A stretch of DNA of 32,638 nucleotides, from positions 84,353 through 116,990 of the forward strand of contig NHIC01000010.1 in NCBI GenBank assembly GCA_002169865.1, written 5' to 3'. The notes beneath the pieces are model-generated. The model saw only the letters and a program-made list of their open reading frames with translations. It did not search any database and was not told where the DNA came from. The DNA is from Flavobacteriaceae bacterium TMED179. Lineage in GTDB: Bacteria; Bacteroidota; Bacteroidia; Flavobacteriales; Flavobacteriaceae. Shown here one piece after another: positions 13,396-23,549 of this stretch (positions within the stretch are counted from its first letter, which is position 1; each line of letters opens with the position of its first letter). A program made the position numbers and the translations under genes.

Positions 13396-13450
13396 TGGAC
13401 TGATAAAAAGCTATCGAAGGAAGTGACCTTAATTCATAGCGTTCAATCCA
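13396..13450 (+). promoter_or_regulatory. Candidate structured leader (r-protein autoregulatory element) upstream of rpsD
   Basis: 83-nt rpsK-rpsD spacer in an otherwise tightly packed operon. Nested helices: TGGACTGA(13396-13403)/TCAATCCA(13443-13450) with one mismatch, GCTAT(13410-13414)/ATAGC(13436-13440), AAGG(13417-13420)/CCTT(13427-13430). Confidence 0.5.
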
Positions 13451-21757: not shown

Positions 21758-21786
21758 AAAAAATCGCTCCATTGGAGCGATTTTTA
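21758..21786. terminator. Bidirectional intrinsic terminator between argS and proteorhodopsin
   Basis: 12-bp perfect stem AAAAATCGCTCC/GGAGCGATTTTT with 3-nt loop; A tract at 5' and T tract at 3', starting directly after the argS stop. Confidence 0.88.
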
Positions 21787-21834: not shown

Positions 21835-22554
21835 TTATTTGGAGTCTACAGCTAATTGGTATACAACTAAACCAAAACCAATTTTATTGATAGCGTCACC
21901 TACATTGTAAATTACATCCATCTGAAGTCCACCGAATATTCCGCTGTACCATCCTTCAGTACCAGCCATGTATCCGATTGGATAAATAGCCCATCCAATT
22001 AATACAAACTTGCAAAGTGTTTTGTGGGCTGATTGAACAGCTCCGCCTGCAGCGGCTGCCAACTTCGAAGCACCACCCATCCAAATTTCATATACGATGT
22101 AGAAATAAGCAATACCTGATACAAGACCCCAAATTTGAGCTTGACTCGTGTAAACAGCTTCTCCAAAATATCCAGTAACTAACATCACAATAGAAGCAAA
22201 AATCATTTTCCACATTAATTGTTTTGTAGCACCAGCTGCTTTAAGGATTAGATAAAATTCAACACACATTAAAGGTACAGTTAGTATCCAATCTACATAT
22301 CTAAAAAATGTAGGGGAGGTCATATTAGTTGCCCAATAGTCACGCATGTACCAATAGTGTACTGCTGCAATGAACGTAATTAAACCTGACACCAAAATAG
22401 AAGTTTTCCATTTGTTGTCAAATGAGTTCATTTGAAGAAAGAAGAACGCTGATGCTGCCATCATCGCCATACATCCTATGAAGAATGTGAATCCAACATA
22501 GTCGTCTGTGGCCATTGCTGGCACTACAGTCATTAAACTTAGAATTTTTTCCAT
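21835..22554 (-). CDS. Proteorhodopsin (predicted green-tuned proton pump)
   Basis: 239 aa, 7-TM; helix C RYVDWILTVPLMCVEFYLIL (D88/T92/E99 = DTE), M96 at the tuning position, helix G DAINKIGFG with Schiff-base Lys224. Confidence 0.97.
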   Translation of the reverse strand: MEKILSLMTVVPAMATDDYVGFTFFIGCMAMMAASAFFFLQMNSFDNKWKTSILVSGLITFIAAVHYWYMRDYWATNMTSPTFFRYVDWILTVPLMCVEFYLILKAAGATKQLMWKMIFASIVMLVTGYFGEAVYTSQAQIWGLVSGIAYFYIVYEIWMGGASKLAAAAGGAVQSAHKTLCKFVLIGWAIYPIGYMAGTEGWYSGIFGGLQMDVIYNVGDAINKIGFGLVVYQLAVDSK

Positions 22555-22637
22555 GATTTAATCAATTATTTATTTTTGTTTAGATAAATTTAGAAAAAAT
22601 TAAACTTATTTGCTTTGTTTTTAATAAATATTTTCTC

Positions 22638-23549
22638 TTGAAAGCATTAACTTCTTCATTTACAATAACTAAAAAGTTTATATTTTCTTTATTTTTTACA
22701 TTAATTTGTATTGTTTTCACACTTTTTTGTTCTGAAAACCTTCAAAATATAGCCTCAAGTTTGGGTATTTTATCCTTTGGTATTCTTCATGGAGCAAACG
22801 ATATTAAAATTTTATCCAGTAAAAAAATGAAAATTAACTCTCTTTTTGGTGTTTCTTTTTTATTAATTTATTTAGTAGTGGTTTTTTCAGGTATATTATT
22901 ATTCTACTTTATACCAGGTATAGCTTTATTAAGTTTTGTAGCAGTAAGCTGTTATCACTTTGGAGAACAACATTGGCAAGATAAATTGAATGATATTAAA
23001 AGGCCATTGCCGTTCTATATTACTTACGGATCTTTAATTTTTTTAATGCTTTTCTCTTTTCACTATTCTCAAGTTGAGGAAATTATTTTTCGAATTTCAT
23101 CTGTTCATATACCCTATCAATTTTTTTTTGTTTCATTGATAATTACAGGGAATATTTTTTTGGGATACATTTTCATTAAATTAAAAAATATCAAACATAT
23201 ATTATTAGAAATATTCCTTTTAGGAGCATTAGCTATTCTTTTCTATACAGGATCTTTACTTTTTGGATTTGGGATTTACTTTGTAATTTGGCATAGTTTA
23301 CCTTCATTGAAGTCTCAAATCAAATATCTTTACCCTGAAAAAGAGGATCGACCATATTTGAAATATTTCAAATCTGCCTTTTTATATTGGATTATGGCTT
23401 TAATTGGATTAGTAACAATGTATTTTTTTGGCACCCTTCCAAAAGATCAATACTTATCAGTTTTCTTTTCATTTTTGGCTGCTATTACATTTCCTCATGT
23501 TATCGTAATGGGATTAATGTTTCATTCGCCTAATCAGAATAGCAATTAA
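22638..23549 (+). CDS. blh: Brp/Blh family beta-carotene 15,15'-dioxygenase
   Basis: 303 aa polytopic; HGANDIK, SCYHFGEQHW, WHSLPSL, FPHVIVM histidine motifs; divergent from proteorhodopsin; TTG start. Confidence 0.92.
   Translation: MKALTSSFTITKKFIFSLFFTLICIVFTLFCSENLQNIASSLGILSFGILHGANDIKILSSKKMKINSLFGVSFLLIYLVVVFSGILLFYFIPGIALLSFVAVSCYHFGEQHWQDKLNDIKRPLPFYITYGSLIFLMLFSFHYSQVEEIIFRISSVHIPYQFFFVSLIITGNIFLGYIFIKLKNIKHILLEIFLLGALAILFYTGSLLFGFGIYFVIWHSLPSLKSQIKYLYPEKEDRPYLKYFKSAFLYWIMALIGLVTMYFFGTLPKDQYLSVFFSFLAAITFPHVIVMGLMFHSPNQNSN

Follow-up and report, generated by a model that had tools for sequence, protein, structure and literature searches.

Proteorhodopsin (PR) and blh have been described together in Flavobacteria bacterium MS024-2A (PMC2668756), and a green-light PR has been called a unifying feature of the NS5 group of marine flavobacteria (PMC9122927). 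The locus analysed here resembles these systems in its PR lineage, the presence of blh, the green type of its PR, and its setting in small photoheterotroph genomes. No description of an antenna site or of an operator was found in either of these two papers. Regulation was taken up in a study of flavobacterial PR light induction that discussed sigma factors and found no regulator (PMC3587595).

Carotenoid-binding rhodopsins are recognized primarily by a glycine, and secondarily by a tyrosine on the following helix, with a polar floor typical of binders of 3-hydroxy-xanthophylls (PMC12308411). Two of them, KR1 (the PR of Dokdonia eikasta) and EinA29G6, bind zeaxanthin and lutein (PMC12308411). 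According to a separate line of work, CarH/LitR proteins use B12 to regulate carotenoid genes in response to light (PMC6739363).

The phototrophy locus

The window, meaning the whole stretch of 32,638 nucleotides that was analysed, comes from a 1.04 Mb assembly that is 58% complete. Its relevant features, together with its sole Rfam match, are as follows.

21835-22554, minus strand: PR, 239 aa, ATG start, Pfam Bac_rhodopsin at 2.2e-39
22638-23549, plus strand: blh, Brp/Blh-family beta-carotene 15,15'-dioxygenase, 303 aa, TTG start
22555-22637, no strand: divergent intergenic region of 83 bp with both promoters
21759-21785, no strand: bidirectional intrinsic-terminator-like hairpin between argS (plus) and PR (minus)
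13409-13442: S4-Flavobacteria ribosomal protein leader (Rfam RF03141)

PR and blh stand head to head, as they do in 74/74 named relatives having both genes, and argS and/or ffh adjoin the pair in most named relatives. These relatives include MS024-2A and Candidatus Arcticimaribacter, which are NS5-type marine flavobacteria. Because of this arrangement, and because green PR/blh was already described in NS5/MS024-2A, the locus is a standard flavobacterial PR/blh phototrophy cassette and ordinary as such; its pairing of pump and retinal synthesis is almost certain and of a kind described before. A sequence-only reading of the window had proposed a divergent cassette in which retinal synthesis and opsin are locally paired. 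The pairing is borne out, and "divergent" is accurate for transcription, with the two genes 83 bp apart, but not for sequence, as the PR of a near sister genome (G015) is 100% identical and the best PDB relative, Proteorhodopsin 9jov/9jou, is 76% identical. That reading was sound as to the cassette and incomplete elsewhere, having noticed neither the antenna site, nor the operator in the PR promoter, nor the earlier description in NS5.

A mobile or viral origin of the locus was rejected, with no viral-contig match and only distant plasmid matches, at or below about 31% among the matches listed. Between species, divergence at four-fold sites is 36-49% in PR versus mostly 50-75% in flanking genes, which suggests codon-level constraint across 21835-22554. 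Recent transfer of PR alone was also rejected, as PR diverges from that of G015 at 22% of four-fold sites, like neighbouring genes, and constraint fits better.

Pump, colour and retinal supply

Five residues of PR align to functional residues of GPR, XR, Kin4B8, and GR.

22291-22293, minus strand: D88, proton-pump residue
22279-22281, minus strand: T92, proton-pump residue
22267-22269, minus strand: M96, spectral tuning site
22258-22260, minus strand: E99, proton-pump residue
21883-21885, minus strand: K224, Schiff base

All five had been named in the earlier reading, with correct codon coordinates for M96 and K224. The protein belongs to the Bac_rhodopsin family and carries both the Schiff-base lysine and the D-T-E motif, in agreement with the proton pump that had been proposed. 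In alignment with characterised rhodopsins it is of the DTE type, and on this motif an NQ (Na+) or Cl- pump was rejected. Judged by these residues, the window PR is almost certainly a light-driven outward proton pump. M96 aligns to the tuning site, position 105 in GPR numbering, where leucine or methionine is common in green PRs (PMC8386455), so that a green absorption maximum is predicted from this methionine, as it had been before.

The neighbouring product is a Brp/Blh protein, as previously assigned from its histidine motifs. It matches Pfam BCD at 1.5e-40 and NCBIfam blh_monoox at 1.4e-56, with 192 bits against a curated cut-off of 95.25, and its histidines 51, 107, 112, 219, and 287 are invariant in 70-71 aligned sequences. 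For the carotenoid pathway, which the earlier reading had proposed to look for, the window's own assembly encodes crtI, a crtA-like gene, crtD, cruF, and a lycopene cyclase (crtY), while crtB, crtZ, and carH were not found in this 58% complete assembly. In the relatives, crtB is present in nine of ten listed genomes, including G015, with a crtZ-type hydroxylase gene adjoining, and G015 has carH as well. Together, crtZ, cruF, crtD, and a crtA-like 2'-hydroxylase are the gene set for myxol synthesis, and the genus has crtZ and myxol-type pathway genes. The crtA/crtD region of the own assembly (L114:13720-17500) contains many ambiguous bases.

A predicted carotenoid antenna site

Two further segments of PR correspond to the carotenoid site of antenna-bearing rhodopsins.

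22126-22128, minus strand: Gly143 codon, antenna fenestration residue, aligning with XR Gly156, Kin4B8 Gly153, and GR Gly178
21955-21972, minus strand: Tyr195-Glu200 codons (Y195, M196, T199, E200), predicted carotenoid-site floor, from the alignment and Table 2 of PMC12308411

The window PR has glycine at the position of XR-156, where GPR has phenylalanine and the PR in 4jq6 has tryptophan; tyrosine (Tyr195) at that of XR-207; and a polar floor of Thr199 and Glu200. KR1 and EinA29G6 share the glycine fenestration, the conserved tyrosine, the polar threonine, and an acidic floor residue. The floor reads Y-M-T-E in the window PR, Y-M-T-D in KR1, and Y-I-T-E in EinA29G6, with glutamate here in place of the aspartate of KR1. 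The closest structures, 9jov/9jou, likewise have a methionine tuning site, Gly142, Tyr194, and the threonine, but carry proline where the window PR has Glu200. The open Gly143 fenestration and the Y-M-T-E floor make a 3-hydroxylated carotenoid, either zeaxanthin or myxol, a probable light-harvesting antenna of the window PR; binding is predicted here and was demonstrated for KR1 and EinA29G6.

A plainer reading is that this is a green PR/blh cassette with no antenna in vivo, in which Gly143 is a residue inherited by the clade and retinal is the sole chromophore. Gly143 occurs in 112/112 aligned sequences and Thr199 in 111/111, and Met196 is likewise invariant, so these positions permit no covariation test; the antenna is predicted from residues only. 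Against the plainer reading, KR1, another flavobacterial PR and one that is reported to bind both zeaxanthin and lutein (PMC12308411), has the same residues, and the genus carries xanthophyll genes; that reading is unlikely.

A dyad shared by several promoters

The PR-blh intergenic region contains an inverted repeat.

22578-22605, no strand: dyad GTTTAG-N16-TTAAAC on either side of a -7-like element, TAAATTTA; predicted to be the operator for PR and possibly also for blh

The dyad was surveyed in 76 PR upstream regions, those of the window and 75 named relatives, at spacings from 8 to 25. At a spacing of 16, 60 of the 76 loci match at least 11 of the 12 arm bases, and no other spacing in this range gives more than four matching loci. 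Two of the PR upstream regions (L106, L111), one from a Tenacibaculum and one from Pelagihabitans pacificus, carry tandem dyads with starts 34 bp apart. Sigma70-type promoters in the PR-blh spacer were discarded as no commoner than in shuffles, as was a plus-strand TAnnTTTG match for blh, which is not conserved.

Across promoters the consensus is GTTTAR-N16-YTAAAC. Within the genus, a dyad with the same spacing of 16 precedes the SRPBCC-SDR-photolyase operon in 28/29 cases, 25 of them perfect and with variable spacers, and the crtA-crtD-cruF operon in 20/29 at a match of at least 11/12, both counts including the two query loci. It also stands, more weakly, upstream of carH-crtB-crtZ in 8/22 genus members (at least 11/12) and at a TonB receptor/Rieske promoter in 3/3, including the own genome. 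Outside the genus, the carH promoter has a dyad of at least 11/12 in 3/29 and mostly a half-site abutting the -7 box. Dinucleotide shuffles, which ignore relatedness, gave means of 0.23 for SRPBCC-SDR-photolyase, 0.42 for crtA, and 0.02 for carH. In the photolyase set the arm columns hold 1.8-2.0 bits and most spacer columns less than 1.3. The distance from dyad to start codon ranges from about 2 to 165 nt while the spacing stays at 16.

Exact dyads are no more numerous per genome than matches to a reversed-pattern control, so only their placement is informative. In the most complete genome (G024, 98%), all four exact sites precede PR, SRPBCC-SDR-photolyase, crtA-crtD-cruF, and TonB/Rieske. 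The own genome has the dyad at PR and TonB/Rieske, and none was seen upstream of its crtA operon. Its TonB/Rieske copy is a perfect dyad at G000:C6:41973-42000 (L169:1974-2001), in the promoter region from which the genes for a small Rieske-domain protein and a TonB-dependent receptor diverge. The dyads that fall within coding sequence (L167, L168, L172) were dismissed. By position and conservation, there is strong support for the dyad as an operator element common to several promoters.

A candidate B12-dependent regulator

Members of the genus carry, ahead of crtB-crtZ, a gene whose product combines a MerR helix-turn-helix (HTH) with a B12-binding domain; among PDB entries, those of Thermus CarH match it best over the full length. 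Of 52 homologues, 51 have the motif W-x9-EH and 47 have E/D-x-H-x-x-G. Because the protein scores below the NCBIfam CarH equivalog cut-off (64.8 versus 400 bits), it is called CarH-type and not CarH.

One relative (G001) keeps the order tRNA-Lys, tRNA-Lys, tRNA-Leu, crtB, crtZ with carH absent (L263, 2337-2630). Its PR promoter has a degraded dyad matching 9/12, the exact dyad is absent genome-wide, and none stands at the photolyase or crtA promoters. In a second (G006), the CarH-type protein (L194) has EQ for EH in W-x9-EH, the PR dyad (L035) has a spacing of 17, and crtA has none, a possible case of light-switch decay. Co-loss of carH and dyads comes from one clear lineage, G001, with G006 as a suggestive case. 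The other genomes without a carH match are mostly fragmented and keep their dyads, which is what one would see if they had carH but their assemblies did not include it.

The CarH-type protein is therefore a probable ligand of the dyad, judged from motifs and co-occurrence. The dyad might instead be a real operator of another regulator, such as a different MerR protein or a two-component system that responds to light or stress. Such a reading draws on the predicted status of CarH binding, on the imperfect dyads of the carH promoters, and on the dyad at the TonB/Rieske promoter, whose relevance to light is not evident; it is doubtful in view of the probable place of carH within the regulon, the CarH domain set of its product, the lost or degraded dyads of G001, and the disrupted PR dyad and missing crtA dyad of G006. 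That the dyad only marks promoter strength or a sigma factor in the AT-rich promoters of flavobacteria is very improbable, for although its arms are AT-rich, it overlaps a -7-like box at PR, and its exact count does not exceed the control, the spacing is fixed whatever the start-codon distance, the arms are symmetric about variable spacers, and the shuffle control is near zero.

Proposed mechanism and implications

The favoured and fairly likely reading is that PR pumps protons, has a predicted carotenoid antenna, and belongs to a light regulon governed by a CarH-type B12 photoreceptor. Blh would cleave beta-carotene to retinal, which would bind K224, and light would drive outward proton transport via D88 and E99. 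The antenna carotenoid would be zeaxanthin, or myxol made via crtZ, cruF, crtD, and crtA. The dyad would act as the operator of a light regulon covering PR, SRPBCC-SDR-photolyase, crtA-crtD-cruF, and probably carH-crtB-crtZ, and the most likely regulator would be the MerR-B12 protein of CarH/LitR type whose gene lies upstream of crtB.

On the analogy of known CarH proteins, this regulator, when loaded with B12, would occupy the operator in darkness and repress; on illumination it would leave, and PR (possibly with blh), xanthophyll synthesis, and photolyase would be turned on together. This direction of control, dark repression and light release, is inferred from the analogy. At PR the -7-like box lies between the dyad arms, and at carH the arms adjoin the -7 box, a placement that suits repression. 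For Flavobacteriaceae as a whole, a broader proposal is put forward with somewhat less confidence, though it is still judged the better bet: PR would be a direct target of CarH-type proteins via a GTTTAA-N16-TTAAAC operator common to photolyase and xanthophyll operons, and B12 and light would jointly gate PR phototrophy and its antenna.

With an operator defined and a B12 photoreceptor proposed, PR light induction becomes directly testable. CarH-type control of PR would link phototrophy in the ocean to the supply of B12, and it predicts that pump, antenna pigment, and DNA photorepair are expressed jointly in a marine group that is abundant and uncultured. The antenna residues, for their part, point to a broader spectral range for these "green" pumps than one would expect from the tuning residue.

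Comparison with known CarH systems

A search of the open-access literature yielded no relevant connection between CarH and flavobacterial PR, which leaves novelty unproven. The flavobacterial protein shares with Thermus CarH (5c8d, 3whp) the MerR HTH, the B12-binding domain, the W-x9-EH and E-x-H-x-x-G motifs, and linkage to crt genes, and differs in having glutamine where Thermus CarH has histidine after the motif tryptophan. Compared with known CarH/LitR regulons, the operator is different, and proteorhodopsin appears as a predicted target.
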